NCBI GenBank assembly: GCA_030831135.1
Contig: JAURLR010000047.1
Location: 1 to 11,217, forward strand
Source: Alphaproteobacteria bacterium
GTDB taxonomy: Bacteria; Pseudomonadota; Alphaproteobacteria; UBA6615
DNA: 11,217 bases
Direction: 5' to 3'
A program made the position numbers and the translations under genes. Below are positions 1,926-7,256 of the stretch, in pieces. The notes beneath the pieces were generated by a model. The model made no database searches and was not told where the DNA came from. It worked only from the letters and a program-made list of their open reading frames with translations. Positions within the stretch are counted from its first letter, which is position 1. The number at the start of each line of letters is the position of its first letter.

Positions 1926-2579
1926 ATGAAACTCTTCGGCTACTGGCGCTCACTCGCCGCCTTTCGCGTCCGCATCGCTCTCAACCTCAAGGGCCAGCCC
2001 TTCGAGGTAATCTCGACCGATCTGATCAAGGGCGAACAGTTCGCCCCTGAATACCTGAAAATCAATCCGCAAGGCGTGGTGCCCGCGCTGGTCACTGATA
2101 GCGGTGAAGCGCTCACCCAGTCCATGGCGATCCTCGAATATCTCGACGAGGCCTATCCCGAGCCCGCTTTGCTGCCCAAAGACCTGCTGGCCCGTGCCCG
2201 TGTGCGCGCGCTCTGCATGATTATGGTTGCCGACATGCACCCGCTCGTGGTGCCGCGTATCCGCAAATATATCACCCAGGATCTCGGCCACAGCGAGGAA
2301 GAGCTCGGCACGTGGATTGGCAACTGGACCGCCAAGGGTCTGGAGGCTGTTGAAAAGCATCTGGCCGAGGACGGTCATTCGGGCAAGTTCTGCGAGGGCG
2401 ACAATGTCACCATGGCCGATCTCTGTCTGGTCCCGCAGGTCGGTGCCGCAGCGCTCTTCAAAATTCCGCTGGACCCCTATCCCAACGCCAAGCGGATTTT
2501 CGATGAATGCATGAAGATCCCCGCCTTTTTCGACGCCCGCCCGCAGGCCCAGCCGGACTTCCCCGAGGACATGAAATAG
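1926..2579 (+). CDS. maiA: Maleylacetoacetate isomerase / zeta-class glutathione S-transferase
   Basis: This cytosolic GST-fold protein of 217 aa has an N-terminal thioredoxin-like domain (about 1-80) and a helical C-terminal domain (about 90-217). Zeta-class signs are Y-W-R-S at residues 6-9 followed by RVRIALNLKG, the NPQGVVPAL cis-Pro segment, QSMAILEYLDE glutathione contacts, and a C-terminal AQPDFPE tail. The family usually isomerises maleylacetoacetate to fumarylacetoacetate in tyrosine or homogentisate breakdown, using glutathione. The active-site motif normally reads S-S-C/A-x; here it reads S-L-A-A, keeping the first serine but replacing the second with leucine. The start has an excellent ribosome site, AGGGGGAAACC-ATG. 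No hppD, hmgA or fahA is nearby, so a catabolic role rests on homology alone. It lies 65 nt after the permease and 10 nt before the next gene, suggesting co-transcription with at least the latter. Confidence 0.87.
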   Translation: MKLFGYWRSLAAFRVRIALNLKGQPFEVISTDLIKGEQFAPEYLKINPQGVVPALVTDSGEALTQSMAILEYLDEAYPEPALLPKDLLARARVRALCMIMVADMHPLVVPRIRKYITQDLGHSEEELGTWIGNWTAKGLEAVEKHLAEDGHSGKFCEGDNVTMADLCLVPQVGAAALFKIPLDPYPNAKRIFDECMKIPAFFDARPQAQPDFPEDMK

Positions 2580-2589
2580 GAAACACGTT

Positions 2590-3639
2590 TTGGGCTTGGT
2601 GTCCCGGTTTCTGTCGGGTTGCGGCGCGGCGATATTCGTACTTGTCGTTCTGTTCCTGATCACCGCTACGCCGGTACATGCGGATCGCGGATTCGATCCG
2701 GGTCTGTTGGACAAGGCCGTCGCGCAGGCCCGGTCGCTGGAACGTCTCAACAGCTTGATCGTGGCCCGTGACGGAAAAATCGCCTTTGCGGAATCCTTTC
2801 ACGGACGGGGTCTGGATACGCCGGTCAACATCAAGTCCGTTTCCAAGTCCGTCATTGCTGCCCTGGTGGGTATTGCAATTGACCGTGGGCTTCTCGATGG
2901 GCCCGATCAGGCCATTGATTTGCTGTTCGATCCGCAGGTTTCCAACGCAGCCGATGGCCGGATAACCGGCATCACCATTGGCAACCTGCTGTCGATGCAG
3001 GCGGGTTTAGAGCGAACTTCCGGACGCAATTATGGCCGCTGGGTCCAGAGTGACAACTGGGTGGATCATGTGCTTTCCCGCCCCTTTGTGGACGTGCCGG
3101 GCGGCGGGATGCTGTATTCGACCGGCAATTCGCACCTGCTCTCGGCGATCCTGACCCGCGTCAGTGGACGCAGCACGCTGGCCCTTGCGCGTGAGTGGCT
3201 CGGCGATCCTCTCGGTATCGACATTCCGGCCTGGGACCGCGACCCCCAAGGAATTTATCTGGGCGGGAACAACATGGCCATGACGCCGCGCGCCTTGCTG
3301 CGGTTTGGTGAATTGTTCCGGCGCGGTGGTGAATATGAGGGCCGGCGTATCCTGCCGGAATCCTGGGTGGAAGCCTCAGGGGCGCCGCGCACCCGCTCGG
3401 TCTTTTCAGGTGATGGTTACGGCTATGGCTGGTTCCTGCGAAACGTGGGTGGTGGACACACCGCAGCTTATGCACGCGGGTTTGGTGGCCAGTACGTCAT
3501 CGTCATCCCGACCCTGGCCATTACGGTGGTGGTCACCTCGGACACGGACACCCGCCTGCGCGTGGATGGCTATGGCGATTCACTCTGGTCGCTGATTGAG
3601 GATGGGCTGGTTCCCGCGGCAATGGCGGCTGGCCGTTAG
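2590..3639 (+). CDS. Exported serine hydrolase, beta-lactamase/6-aminohexanoate-dimer hydrolase (S12-like) family
   Basis: This 349-aa hydrolase begins with a signal peptide: hydrophobic core at residues 9-27, likely cut after the VHA motif near residue 31, so it probably acts in the periplasm. The penicillin-binding/class C fold is indicated by the nucleophile motif S83-V-S-K86 (SxxK), Y176-S-T for the second catalytic motif, and GFGGQ at 297-301, the third-motif region typical of NylB-like relatives. The family contains beta-lactamases, D-Ala-D-Ala carboxypeptidases, esterases and amidases, and sequence alone does not settle the substrate. There is no ATG: TTG 2590 is chosen because AGGAAA (2578-2583) is well spaced, while TTG 2596 and GTG 2599 remain possible. 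It starts 10 nt after the GST gene, so the two are probably one operon. The end is followed by 73 nt without a convincing terminator. Confidence 0.87.
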   Translation: MGLVSRFLSGCGAAIFVLVVLFLITATPVHADRGFDPGLLDKAVAQARSLERLNSLIVARDGKIAFAESFHGRGLDTPVNIKSVSKSVIAALVGIAIDRGLLDGPDQAIDLLFDPQVSNAADGRITGITIGNLLSMQAGLERTSGRNYGRWVQSDNWVDHVLSRPFVDVPGGGMLYSTGNSHLLSAILTRVSGRSTLALAREWLGDPLGIDIPAWDRDPQGIYLGGNNMAMTPRALLRFGELFRRGGEYEGRRILPESWVEASGAPRTRSVFSGDGYGYGWFLRNVGGGHTAAYARGFGGQYVIVIPTLAITVVVTSDTDTRLRVDGYGDSLWSLIEDGLVPAAMAAGR

Positions 3640-3712
3640 GGTGCGTTGGACCCTGTCCGCAAAGAATCCAAAAATGGCACCGTCCCGTGATAGTGCAGGA
3701 CGCAGGCCAGAC

Positions 3713-4273
3713 TTACCAGTACCGGACCTTGCCCACATCGACATGGACAAAGCCGGACTTCGGATAATAGCCGACGCCACCGAGTTTCAGGGATTTTGCG
3801 ACCTTGTGCACGGTGCGCAGGTCGCGATCGGGCAGGGACATGTCGATGGCCATGCCCTGCATGTGCAGGCTCTTCTTGGCGACGCCGCCGCTCTTGGCCG
3901 CCAGAGCAGCGTTGGTCTTGGGCGAGCGATAGCCCGAGACCAAGCGATAGGGTGCGTTGGTGCCCAGCTTACGGCGCAGGGACTGGAGCAGGTCGATGAC
4001 CCGCACATCGATCGGATAGACTTCATCGGTGCGGAAGTCGCGCAGCACGACGTTGATCTCACCCAGGGCGTCATTGATATAGCGGCCCTTTTCCCAATAG
4101 GCGGTTTTGACCTTTTCGCCGGTGTGCATGTTGTGCAGGGCGACGGTGCGCACCTGCGGCCCGATCGCGGCATTGGCGATACCGGGCAGGATGAAGGGGG
4201 TGGCGAAAGCCGCGGCGCCGATGAGGAAACGGCGGCGGTCAGGGTGCGGGCGGTTCCCGCTATCCGATGTCAT
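3713..4273 (-). CDS. mepK: Tat-exported DUF882 / M15-type murein endopeptidase, MepK (YcbK)-like
   Basis: This 186-aa protein carries a twin-arginine signal: DRRRFL at residues 12-17, a hydrophobic stretch to about 32, and an ANA cleavage site near 35. The mature part is a compact DUF882/peptidase M15 domain. Zinc ligands are visible as S-L-H137-xxxxxx-D144 and V-H177-V-D179, and SGYRSP at 113-118 is the usual family motif. In E. coli the relative MepK (YcbK) is a murein endopeptidase that opens cross-links, including 3-3 ones, and its gene lies beside ycbB (ldtD). Here the next gene upstream is also a YcbB-like transpeptidase, 121 nt away on the same strand. Function is inferred from family and this conserved neighbourhood. 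ATG 4273 is the only start compatible with the Tat signal; its ribosome site is weak. Confidence 0.88.
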   Translation of the reverse strand: MTSDSGNRPHPDRRRFLIGAAAFATPFILPGIANAAIGPQVRTVALHNMHTGEKVKTAYWEKGRYINDALGEINVVLRDFRTDEVYPIDVRVIDLLQSLRRKLGTNAPYRLVSGYRSPKTNAALAAKSGGVAKKSLHMQGMAIDMSLPDRDLRTVHKVAKSLKLGGVGYYPKSGFVHVDVGKVRYW

Positions 4274-4394
4274 GGCTCACGCGCGTCATGTCCATGTCCT
4301 ATTCTTGCAGCACGGCCTCAACGGACCGTTAAGATGGTTAATTAGCCGGAATTCCGATGCCTCGCATCTGAAATATTAAGGCAATTGTGTGGCT
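4274..4394 (-). promoter_or_regulatory. AT-richer gap between ldtD-like and mepK-like genes, with short palindromes
   Basis: This 121-nt gap is clearly AT-richer than its flanks. It contains TTAAGATGGTTAA (4329-4341; minus strand TTAACCATCTTAA), a perfect palindrome CGGAATTCCG (4347-4356) and a small hairpin GATGC-CTC-GCATC (4356-4368). TTAACCAT resembles a CtrA half site of Alphaproteobacteria, but the second TTAA is 5 nt away instead of the canonical 7. The gap may hold a separate promoter for the peptidase gene; no clear -35/-10 pair is visible. There is no T-tract that would make the hairpin a terminator. Confidence 0.3.
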
Positions 4395-6047
4395 TCAGGT
4401 CTTCCGGGCCGAGAGAGCCTTGGCCAGGGCGCTGTCGCGGTCATAGATGTCCTGACGGAAATTGACCGTGCCGTCTTCCGAGGTCCAGGCGGTAAAATAG
4501 GTCAGGTGAACCGGTACTGGGGTCGCAAGTCGGACGATCCGGGTGTCCTTGCCTGCGATGGCCTGCTGAATGTCTGCGCGGTCCTCCCAGCCGGTCTGGT
4601 TGTTGAGGACAAAGGCGGCGAGATCGAGCGGACGCTCCACCCGGATACACCCCGAACTGAAGGTGCGCAGGGTGCGCCCGAACAATTCGCGCGCGGGTGA
4701 ATCATGCAGGTAGACATCGTGCTTGTTGGGAAACATGAACTTGACGCTGCCCAGTGCATTTTGCGGTCCCGGGTTCTGGCGCAACTTGTAGGGGAATCGT
4801 CCGGGCCCGAGCGCGGACCAGTTGATCGCAGCCGGGTCGAGGGTCTGCGCATTGGCGCCCCAACCGTCGAGAACACTGAACCCGGCGCTGGCGACATAAT
4901 TCGGGTCAGCGATGATTTTCGGCAGCACATCATTCGCCGCAATCTTCGGCGGCACGTGCCAGAACGGATTGAGTTCAAGATAGGAAATCCGGTCCGAGAA
5001 CACCGGTGTGCGGCGATACTGTTTGCCGACCACGACCCGCATCTCGCTGCGAATGCGCCCGTTCTCGATCCTCTGCAACGAAAAGGCGGCGATATTGACG
5101 AGAACATGCCGTTCGCCGAGATCGTCGGGCATCCAGCGCCAGCGTTCCATGTTGAGCATGATCTGCTCGATCCGCGCATCCACACTGACTTTCAGGGCAG
5201 CGATCGTGGCGCGACCGACGACACCATCCGGGTCGAGACCATGCCGCTTCTGGAAAACGATGGTGGCCTGTTCGAGGGTGTCATCGAAGGTTTCGGATTC
5301 AATACCTGAACCCAGCAGATCAATCGTGGCCGCCAGCCGCGCCCGCAGGGCAGACACTCGGGGGCCGGAATCGCCCAGGGTCAGCTTGGGGCCATCGGGA
5401 ACGGTCGGCCAATCACCCGCTGCGGCAACCCGACGATAGGCCGCGAGGCTGTCGCGCAGGTTGCGGTAGACCGGATTGGCCGGGGTGTATGCCGTGACAA
5501 CGCGGCGCAGATCCGCCGCTGTGGCGATGGCGTCCAGCGCGGCCCGCCGGTCGATCACCGCATTGGCGACAAACAAATCAGGATCGAGGCGTGACGGCGA
5601 AACGCGCCCTGTGCGCAGGTCACCGAGAAAGTGGAGGATCGCATCCGACATGGAGATCTCGAACTGCGCTGCTTCTCCGGCGTCGGCAAATTTATCGGGC
5701 AGCGGTGTCACGGCGGCGAGATAGTCATCCGGGTTCAGGCCATCCCGGTCTGCGGTGCGCAGCAGATCCCGTGCGGCCTGCGCCTTGTCATTGGGTTTGG
5801 CCTTTGTCACCCAGACGGCCGGAAATTCACGTGCGCCGTAAAAATCACGAATGGCGACGAGCCGCTCGGTCGCTGGATCCGTCCCTGCCGCGCCCACAGT
5901 GGCGGCGAGTTGAACTTGCAAGGCGCGGGCGTCGTCATCCAGCGCCTGCGCAGGCTGAAGGAAAGCCGTCAACGCAAGCAGCAGGGTTGTGATCAGGATG
6001 AAAGCAGAGAGGCCCGGCGTGCGGGTGGTACGAAGAACGGTTTGCAT
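4395..6047 (-). CDS. ldtD: L,D-transpeptidase, YcbB/LdtD-like, with peptidoglycan-binding domain
   Basis: This is a periplasmic or membrane-anchored 550-aa enzyme that makes 3-3 (mDAP-mDAP) cross-links in peptidoglycan. Residues 1-36 form a signal or anchor with hydrophobic core 13-30. The YcbB-type N-terminal scaffold covers about 40-210, and a PG_binding_1 repeat covers about 222-287 (LGDSGPRVSALRARL through DGVVGRATIAAL). The YkuD catalytic domain spans about 313-510, with H448 in VYLHDS and the nucleophile C467 in RTFSSGCIRVERP. Length is close to that of YcbB proteins (about 600 aa) and all hallmark residues are present. ATG 6047 has AAGGG 5 nt upstream. Its gene follows the oxidoreductase by 50 nt and precedes the M15 peptidase gene by 121 nt on the same strand, suggesting a cell-wall-remodelling unit. 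No truncation or frameshift is seen. Confidence 0.92.
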   Translation of the reverse strand: MQTVLRTTRTPGLSAFILITTLLLALTAFLQPAQALDDDARALQVQLAATVGAAGTDPATERLVAIRDFYGAREFPAVWVTKAKPNDKAQAARDLLRTADRDGLNPDDYLAAVTPLPDKFADAGEAAQFEISMSDAILHFLGDLRTGRVSPSRLDPDLFVANAVIDRRAALDAIATAADLRRVVTAYTPANPVYRNLRDSLAAYRRVAAAGDWPTVPDGPKLTLGDSGPRVSALRARLAATIDLLGSGIESETFDDTLEQATIVFQKRHGLDPDGVVGRATIAALKVSVDARIEQIMLNMERWRWMPDDLGERHVLVNIAAFSLQRIENGRIRSEMRVVVGKQYRRTPVFSDRISYLELNPFWHVPPKIAANDVLPKIIADPNYVASAGFSVLDGWGANAQTLDPAAINWSALGPGRFPYKLRQNPGPQNALGSVKFMFPNKHDVYLHDSPARELFGRTLRTFSSGCIRVERPLDLAAFVLNNQTGWEDRADIQQAIAGKDTRIVRLATPVPVHLTYFTAWTSEDGTVNFRQDIYDRDSALAKALSARKT

Positions 6048-6097: not shown

Positions 6098-6718
6098 TTA
6101 TTCGGCCCTCGCAGCCCCCACCGCATCCATGAACTGCACCAGCACGTCGTAGGGCTGTGCCCCGACGACGCCCTGACCATCCGCGACATAGGTGGGAACA
6201 CCGGTCACGCCATATCCCTGTGACTTGGCCCAGTCGGCATCGACCGCATCTTTGAAGGTGCGGTTTTCCAGCACGTCGCGCGCGGCAGTGCCATCCAGCC
6301 CGACGCTTTCGGCAATGCTGACCAGCAGGTCGATATCAGCGATGTTCTTCTGATCCACAAAATAGGCCTGATAGAGCTTCATGTGGATCGCATCGCCACC
6401 CTGCTGGGTGTCGGCCCACTTGCCGAGTTCCTGGGCGAGCCGGCTGTTATAGGTGTGGGTGCGCTGGGCGTAGGGCAGGCCCTCTTCATCCATCAACCCC
6501 TTCATGCGCGCATACATGGCTTCCGGGTCGTAATCGCGCCCGGCGAACAGCTCTTCCAGCGACTTGCCTTCCATCGGCGTATCGGGATGCAGTGGAAAGT
6601 GGACGTTCTGGATTTCAACGTCATAGGCGGCTTTCAGTTTTTCAACACGCACGGTGCTGAGATAACACCAGGGTCAGACGTAGTCGGAGAAGACCTCGAG
6701 AATCTTGGGATCGGACAT
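6098..6718 (-). CDS. Candidate selenoprotein: FrnE/DsbA-like thiol oxidoreductase with U-P-W-C active site (in-frame TGA)
   Basis: Reading from ATG 6718 gives 14 codons ending in EVFSDYV, then TGA (6674-6676), then PWCYLSTVRVEKLK and an uninterrupted frame to TAA at 6098. FrnE-type members of the DsbA family carry FSDYVCPWCYLG at this place, so the TGA replaces precisely the first, attacking Cys of CPWC. Decoded as Sec, the protein is 206 aa, usual for the family, with U15-P-W-C18, an inserted helical domain, the cis-Pro loop GVTGVPTYV (P175) and the C-terminal VVGAQPYDVLVQF segment. It lacks a signal peptide, so it probably acts in the cytoplasm as a dithiol/selenol oxidoreductase or isomerase. 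A caller treating TGA as stop would begin at GTG 6652 and lose the active site. A hairpin after the TGA fits a bacterial SECIS. Alternatives are a nonsense mutation or sequence error from TGC/TGT. The ribosome site is weak (GAAAG, 8 nt spacing). Confidence 0.72.
6642..6660 (-). promoter_or_regulatory. Putative bacterial SECIS hairpin downstream of the TGA
   Basis: In the minus-strand mRNA, UCAGCAC (6660-6654) pairs with GUGUUGA (6648-6642), giving 7 bp including one G-U pair, and closes a 5-nt loop CGUGC. The loop starts 20 nt after the UGA and has G as its second base. As I recall the published bacterial SECIS model, it needs an upper stem of at least 4 bp, an apical loop of 3-14 nt with a G in the first two positions, and a 16-37 nt UGA-to-loop distance. 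All three are met. A 19-nt hairpin of this kind can arise by chance, so it is supportive and not proof. Confidence 0.5.
6674..6676 (-). other. In-frame TGA, putative selenocysteine codon 15
   Basis: The minus-strand codons read GAC TAC GTC TGA CCC TGG TGT TAT, that is D-Y-V-[TGA]-P-W-C-Y. The codon aligns with the nucleophilic Cys of the thioredoxin-fold CxxC. Other genes here, such as the permease and the regulator, end normally with TGA, so TGA is a stop in this genome and special recoding would be needed. Confidence 0.7.
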
Positions 6719-6812: not shown

Positions 6813-7256
6813 ATGTCTGACCTGACCGTCCCCTCCCGCAAGCTGACCCATAACGGGGTGCGCAAGCTGATCGACGCTGCCGTTGATGCCGCCAATGAGA
6901 TGGGGGTGCCCATGGGGATCGCCGTTGCCAATGATGGCGCACGGATCATCGGCTATCTGCTGATGGACGGTGCGCGAATCCTGGCCCAGGACTCCGCCAG
7001 CGCAAAAGCCATGACAGCGGCCAGCCACCGGATGCCGACCCACGCCATCGACTACAATATCGGCATGGGGCTGTCGGTCTCCACCCAGGGCAAGGTGCTG
7101 CCCCTGCGTGGCGGGGTGCCGATTGTCATCGACGGCTACTGCGTGGGCGGGATCGGCTGTGGCTCAGGCACCGGCGAGCAGGATCTGATTGTGGCGAAGG
7201 CCGCGTTGGCCGCCATCGGTGCGGAAATCCCCGATGACGATGTGAGCGAAGGCTAG
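6813..7256 (+). CDS. GlcG/HbpS family protein (heme-binding-like domain)
   Basis: This small 147-aa single-domain protein covers the whole GlcG/HbpS (DUF336, PduO-C-like) fold. Typical features are the N-terminal LTHNGVRKLIDAAVDAANEM helix, the GVPMGIAVANDGA strand, a central run SASAKAMTAASHR, and the glycine-rich end LPLRGGVPIVIDG then VGGIGCGSGTGEQDLIVAKAAL. There is no signal peptide, so a cytoplasmic location is expected. Members bind heme or cobalamin-type ligands or are found with glycolate oxidase genes; the ligand here is unknown. ATG 6813 follows GGAG with 6-nt spacing. The TAG stop overlaps the stop of the convergent pump gene in one CTAG. It is divergent from the thiol oxidoreductase gene, which may or may not mean shared control. 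Confidence 0.87.
   Translation: MSDLTVPSRKLTHNGVRKLIDAAVDAANEMGVPMGIAVANDGARIIGYLLMDGARILAQDSASAKAMTAASHRMPTHAIDYNIGMGLSVSTQGKVLPLRGGVPIVIDGYCVGGIGCGSGTGEQDLIVAKAALAAIGAEIPDDDVSEG

Follow-up and report, generated by a model that had tools for sequence, protein, structure and literature searches.

A candidate selenocysteine-containing FrnE/DsbA-like oxidoreductase with a U-P-W-C site in an uncultured alphaproteobacterium

DsbA-like proteins with a UxxC site were reported as selenoproteins in 2005, when nine sequences from the Sargasso Sea (COG2761) were presented with their SECIS elements in Figure 3 of that paper (PMC1088965). A DsbA-like selenoprotein is also found in a 2006 survey (PMC1794560), in the GOS data as 'DsbA 1' (63 in a table cited here without its column heading; PMC2398784), in 41 organisms in 2016 (PMC5029168), and in reviews of 2022 and 2026 (PMC9312934, PMC13188914), the latter of which lists it as 'form 1'. 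These UxxC selenoproteins are commoner in marine samples (PMC1088965, PMC2398784, PMC9312934, PMC13188914). FrnE is among the names given to a cytoplasmic subfamily of DsbA proteins. In vitro, the FrnE of Deinococcus radiodurans acts as a disulfide isomerase and reduces insulin, and the corresponding mutant shows sensitivity to both cadmium and diamide (PMC8945050). The titles and abstract openings of the literature searched contain no bacterial selenoprotein under the name FrnE.

Here we describe a gene in a window of 11,217 nt, the whole stretch of DNA analysed, from the draft genome of an uncultured alphaproteobacterium. We conclude, with a probability of about 0.95, that this gene encodes a FrnE/DsbA-like thiol oxidoreductase with a predicted selenocysteine (Sec) as its attacking residue (U15-P-W-C18). 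The features of the locus are as follows.

6098..6718, minus strand: frnE-type candidate selenoprotein gene, 206 codons with TGA read as Sec, ATG start, TAA stop
6674..6676, minus strand: in-frame TGA, codon 15, predicted Sec at position 1 of U-P-W-C (the first Cys of CPWC)
6665..6667, minus strand: Cys codon 18 of UPWC, from the translation, presumed resolving thiol
6642..6660, minus strand: SECIS-type hairpin with a 7-bp stem, nt 17-23 pairing with nt 29-35 as counted from the T of TGA
6649-6653, minus strand: hairpin loop of 5 nt, CGUGC
6194..6196, minus strand: codon 175, Pro of the conserved T-G-V-P-T, an invariant column of a 30-sequence alignment, which we take to be the cis-Pro loop of the thioredoxin fold
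6098..6652, minus strand: open reading frame (ORF) reported by conventional annotation, 184 aa with a GTG start at 6652, from the mechanical ORF list
6813..7256, plus strand: divergent neighbour, HbpS-like protein (PF03928), adjoining the gene in close relatives only

Translation of 6098-6718 on the minus strand gives a single FrnE/DsbA-like frame of 206 residues, MSDPKILEVFSDYV*PWCYLST...RAE*, in which the TGA is the sole internal stop. The read-through protein matches Pfam DSBA (PF01323) over residues 7-196 with an E value of 5.5e-37 and 127.9 bits against a cut-off of 25.6, and therefore the family sequence is intact on either side of the TGA. This bears out the preliminary description of the locus, in which the TGA was placed exactly at the attacking Cys of CPWC in an otherwise intact gene. 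Codon 18 is the only Cys codon of the frame, with none downstream of residue 18. With the read-through protein as query, no NCBIfam model scored over its cut-off and one gave a sub-threshold match. The neighbours of the gene in the window were found in 13 of 98 loci, 3 duplicates among them and all in close relatives; in these 98 loci, with flanks of at most about 1.5-3 kb, the gene neighbourhood offers no functional clue.

The AlphaFold2 model of the protein, obtained with 30 sequences, has a mean pLDDT of 91.3 and a pTM of 0.87. Its best PDB matches are five entries of D. radiodurans FrnE (TM 0.85-0.88, query-normalised; 32-33% identity), and S. coelicolor SCO1869 is also among the best solved matches. 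The sequence search likewise gave D. radiodurans FrnE as the best solved relative, with an E value of 9.9e-24. The first strand of the model starts at residue 5, which therefore would leave no room for a signal peptide, and the protein is probably cytoplasmic as judged from the model. Because the best match in both fold and sequence has reductase and isomerase activities, the most likely role by analogy would be that of a cytoplasmic reductase/isomerase with Sec as the attacking residue.

An orthologue with one TGA was found in 20 of 95 genomes, the window's own and its relatives, in a search with the read-through protein. Nineteen of these belong to the 24 genomes of the window's family, its own included, and all 19 orthologues in the family carry the TGA. 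Sixteen are full-length, two (in genomes G017 and G002) are cut by contig ends, and the one in G001 is fragmented by frame breaks. Outside the family, a TGA orthologue is present in a single genome of the 95, G034, from another family of the same class. Matches of about 30% identity, taken as paralogues, are mostly without a stop among the matches listed, the exceptions being a TAG in G037 and a TAA in G002.

A set of 110 loci was composed of the best 80 of 156 confirmed loci from named genomes and 30 loci from the 95-genome search, from which L034, with codon 15 outside its coverage, was dropped. In the remaining 109 loci the site-15 codon is TGA in 59 and Cys in 50 (27 TGC and 23 TGT), with no other codon, and the Cys/TGA alternation that the preliminary description had proposed looking for in homologues is thus observed. 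Removal of four duplicates (L115-L118) and of L186, which contains N, left 55 TGA and 49 Cys sequences. One database protein outside the 109-locus set, P0020, has Arg at the Sec/Cys site (DYVRPWCYLST), which would be either an altered TGA or a sequencing slip. The TGA forms occur in MAGs labelled Alphaproteobacteria, Acidobacteria, Rokubacteria, Deltaproteobacteria, OM182 and Pseudomonadales, labels that may be wrong.

A stem-loop after the UGA with a G in its small apical loop is a feature of bacterial SECIS elements (PMC1088965), and the 7-bp stem with loop CGUGC downstream of codon 15 has this form. Across the 55 TGA sequences (44 distinct), 98.7% of the hairpin cells are paired and 11 cells show a two-sided change. 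Within the 44 distinct sequences, pair 21-31 is U-A in 34, C-G in 9 and U-G in 1, pair 19-33 is A-U in 39, U-A in 2 and unpaired in 3, and pair 20-32 is unpaired in 1. The percentage paired, the number of cells with two-sided change and the covariation score were each as high in 0 of 500 shuffles, which ignore relatedness. The two-sided changes fall at only 2 of the 7 stem pairs, a count reached by 41 of 500 shuffles, and the same holds for further pair types (41 of 500). In the Cys orthologues, 39 of the 49 Cys sequences after exclusion of 10 distant paralogues (34 distinct), the same positions are 54.2% paired, no better than shuffles.

Predicted folds follow the same division. When nt 10-48 were folded, the first 9 nt being omitted as a rough stand-in for the nucleotides assumed to be held by the ribosome, the hairpin came out as the best fold for 54 of the 55 TGA sequences and for none of the 39 Cys sequences. 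The corresponding numbers for nt 1-45 are 40 of 55 and 0 of 39, and with nt 1-48 the hairpin is best in 43 of 55 TGA sequences. The window's own sequence, folded over all 48 nt, slightly favours a different hairpin (-8.1 versus -7.8 kcal/mol), the conserved one having a probability of ~0.4. At the third positions of codons 20-24 the entropy is 0-0.68 bits in the TGA forms as opposed to 1.28-1.67 bits in the Cys forms. At the protein level, LSTxRIE or similar follows U-PWCY, and LGDNRVK or similar is found in most Cys forms. It is noted that L140 and L141, two TGA forms, have a stem pair mirrored from A-U to U-A together with a Ser-to-Cys substitution in the protein, which hints that keeping the RNA stem takes precedence over keeping the residue. 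A 45-position covariance model built from the 55 TGA sequences matched the window's own genome only here, with 72.6 bits; the model includes the codons of the protein motif and therefore carries little information on other selenoprotein genes. Rfam produced no match in the window at gathering scores, and none on the contig with selA and selB at E values up to 1.

The window's genome (G000) is a draft of 2.38 Mb in 389 contigs, 84.57% complete with 1.84% contamination. It carries selB (462.4 bits) and selA (555.9 bits), both over their cut-offs and adjacent on a 3.5-kb contig, C109, with selA truncated by the contig start. Neither tRNA-Sec nor a full selD was found over the cut-offs in this draft assembly, and the five sub-cut-off tRNA-Sec matches are tRNA-Ser, Gly, Ser, Phe and His genes according to ARAGORN. 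Contig C328 opens with the last 21 codons and the stop of selD, recognised by eye from resemblance to the SelD end of the same-genus genome G004. On C365 the tRNA-Sec gene can be followed for its first 16 nt, which run into an integrase gene. When 19 kb around the sel genes of G004 was matched to the window's genome, C328, C365 and C109 followed in order with two gaps, at 2016-4387 and 13056-14022 of that G004 stretch; the first gap contains in G004 an oxidoreductase-SelD fusion (1995-4343) and most of the tRNA-Sec (4308-4403). The sel genes that the preliminary description had named as a check are thus present in this 84.6%-complete draft as selA and selB, with selD visible as its last 21 codons and tRNA-Sec as 16 nt. 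The absence of selB, selC and selD from a complete genome, which that description had set against its own reading, is so far not what this incomplete draft, with its 16 nt of tRNA-Sec, shows. A genome devoid of Sec machinery was rejected as an explanation, considering that selA, selB, the end of selD and the start of selC were all found.

Of 36 genomes, 22 have selB and 21 have selD over the cut-off. For the 24 genomes of the family the counts are 20 with selB and 18 with selD over the cut-off, and 18 with a tRNA-Sec scoring above 64 bits. Matches to tRNA-Sec below ~52 bits in relatives were distrusted (ARAGORN called 11 loci as 8 tRNA-SeC and 3 tRNA-Ser). Within the family, the TGA form of frnE occurs in 18 genomes with selB and 1 without, as against 2 with and 3 without for genomes lacking the TGA form (Fisher p 0.018). 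The link is weaker for selD and for tRNA-Sec, with p 0.078 in both cases. The TGA form is present without selB over the cut-off in G021 and G034, and Sec genes are present without the TGA form in G012 and G020.

Two selD genes of relatives should be mentioned here. In G004, selD (L195:1995-4343, minus strand) is a 782-aa pyridine-nucleotide-disulfide oxidoreductase-SelD fusion. The NCBIfam 'fusion_not_SelD' model also scores this fusion, below the cut-off, and the automatic name may mislead. Oxidoreductase-SelD fusions are already known (PMC2398784). The G022 bin (7% contamination) holds a selD with a 776-aa frame as well as a second selD with one in-frame TGA (L095, G022:C88:2112-3044; 415 bits), which is possibly a Sec-containing SelD.

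The interrupted tRNA-Sec raises the alternative that the gene does encode a selenoprotein in its lineage, in a strain whose Sec decoding was lost when a mobile element cut selC. On C365 of G000, the sequence goes from an upstream hydrolase gene through the 16 nt of tRNA-Sec into the integrase gene (Arm-DNA-bind_3, Phage_int_M). Such a loss would be consistent with the failure to find a tRNA-Sec over the cut-off, or a second exact copy of the 16 nt, in the assembly. However, the same-genus G001 carries the same element end (95.5% identity over 776 bp), where an 11.8-kb insert (G001:C17:180356-192179) lies between two 16-bp repeats with one mismatch between the copies, and the second repeat forms the 5' end of a complete tRNA-Sec, with selD after it. 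Moreover, selB and the visible parts of selA and selD are open frames in G000, and the assembly gap coincides with the expected place of selC and selD. Because the element end is the same and is followed in G001 by tRNA-Sec and selD, the window's genome likely resembles G001, with a complete tRNA-Sec and selD beyond the element. We infer an intact tRNA-Sec in this genome and consider the loss of Sec decoding in the strain unlikely.

The integrative element with the phage-type integrase has its site at the 5' end of the tRNA-Sec gene, both in G001 and in the window's genome (G000:C365, 8669 to the contig end); the selC islands of E. coli use the 3' end. In G003 (L078/L210) and G022 (L079/L211), two contigs each terminate in a copy of tRNA-Sec, and the same tRNA-Sec site may be variable in those populations too.

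A less probable alternative is that the UGA is a true stop, with a 14-residue peptide and a 184-aa protein re-initiated at GTG 6652 as the products. The GTG ORF does exist, and the preliminary description was right that the conventional product is 184 aa and lacks the redox centre: the ORF begins at residue 23, without U15 and C18. Many database entries hold this form. Among the 120 best database relatives listed, 34 (counted by eye) are 184-185 aa long, matching the ORF without the active site, and the 4 of them inspected all start at the same GTG or its equivalent. On the other hand, U-P-W-C and the upstream codons are conserved, TGA exchanges with Cys, the hairpin is retained only with TGA, and the GTG start falls within the hairpin loop. 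The model further suggests that a thioredoxin-fold protein deprived of the active-site motif and the first strand would probably not function. Taken with the conservation of the site, these points make termination at codon 15 very improbable.

The TGA could also be a sequencing or assembly error, or a fresh nonsense mutation in a decaying gene, and the draft, metagenome-type assembly in 389 contigs would allow for this. The same TGA, however, is found in 19 genomes of the same family and at 55 distinct loci overall, in MAGs with diverse labels. Selection was assessed on the codons downstream of the TGA, the 14 upstream codons being too few for a test of their own. In ungapped comparisons with six TGA orthologues, dS is 0.76-1.30, dN 0.043-0.252 and omega 0.056-0.193, and the downstream codons are under purifying selection. 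A pseudogene or an error was rejected on the conservation of the TGA and on this selection, unless many assemblies share one and the same error, and we give it only a slight chance. Reassignment of UGA, for example to Trp, was rejected as having a negligible chance, with the TGA in ordinary use as a stop (the final stop of 3 of 9 window genes checked, those of a permease, a YkuD and a LuxR-type protein, the rest ending in TAG or TAA), with window genes that end in TGA matching Pfam families without reading one, with Cys and never Trp in place of TGA in all non-TGA loci of the 109, and with the selA-selB pair present.

The reading of the gene as encoding a selenoprotein, already put forward in the preliminary description, is supported by the TGA/Cys alternation, by a hairpin confined to the TGA forms, and by selA-selB and the end of selD in the same genome. 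We infer the insertion of Sec itself at codon 15. During translation, SelB with Sec-tRNA(Sec) would bind the hairpin spanning nt 14-32 after the UGA, and Sec would be inserted at the UGA in place of termination. The selenolate of U15 would then attack substrate disulfides to form a mixed selenenyl sulfide, which Cys18 would resolve. This chemistry is a proposal, as is a catalytic direction as reductase or isomerase, by analogy with D. radiodurans FrnE.

The history of the site was examined in a tree of 102 of the 104 rows, with two short rows left out and C substituted for the TGA. The best tree needs four Sec/Cys changes, two of which are required by branches with strong support, and support is weak at several of the deep forks. 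A single group contains 36 Cys rows; the TGA row L177 branches closest to it, followed by L124 and L133, also TGA rows. Three other Cys rows, L136, L167 and L175, cluster with seven TGA rows. If ten distant Cys paralogues are taken to mark the far side of the tree, a single Sec gain and three losses fit, again with several weak deep forks. L167, a Cys form from a Caenispirillum MAG, retains LNTGRIE together with a damaged hairpin. We propose, with confidence evenly divided for and against, that Sec is ancestral in this FrnE clade and that Cys forms such as those of marine SAR116 and Rhodospirillales go back to independent reversions from Sec to Cys, of which the best tree has three. The hairpin would have imposed LSTxRIE on the protein, a constraint released to LGDNRVK in the large Cys clade, and a damaged remnant of it would persist in the Caenispirillum Cys gene.

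If Sec is indeed ancestral, the family would offer a clean natural record of a bacterial lineage leaving selenium dependence. The 55 TGA and 39 Cys orthologues, with their matched hairpin contrast, provide a test bed for Sec/Cys exchange and SECIS constraint. The 184-185-aa entries among the best database relatives listed (34 of 120) also indicate that an active-site selenoprotein is still being lost in annotation.

We have compared the predicted protein with three sets of known relatives. FrnE of D. radiodurans (DR_0659; PDB 5cnw, 5cp1) has the same fold with the active-site motif aligned, and has Cys where the window protein has the predicted Sec. It also has a C-terminal CXXXXC (PMC8945050), which is absent in the window protein with its U15 and C18 only. 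Of the features of the FrnE subfamily, the N-terminal UxxC in a DsbA-like domain is thus present and the C-terminal CXXXXC is not; the latter is not obligatory, since many members possess it but not all (PMC8945050). The Cys orthologues, 39 loci mostly from marine Rhodospirillales and SAR116 MAGs, are 48-67% identical to the window protein and full-length with the same CPWC site, and differ in having Cys for Sec, no hairpin, and mostly an LGDNRVK-like sequence for LSTxRIE. In the described DsbA-like selenoprotein family (COG2761/PF01323), the Pfam family, the position of Sec in UxxC and the SECIS element after the UGA are all as here, and no difference in kind was found, the 2005 sequences being compared by their description only. 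The window member comes from an uncultured alphaproteobacterial genome with its Sec genes partly visible. DsbA-like UxxC selenoproteins have been in print since 2005, and the family is therefore not new; the gene described here would be an added member of it.
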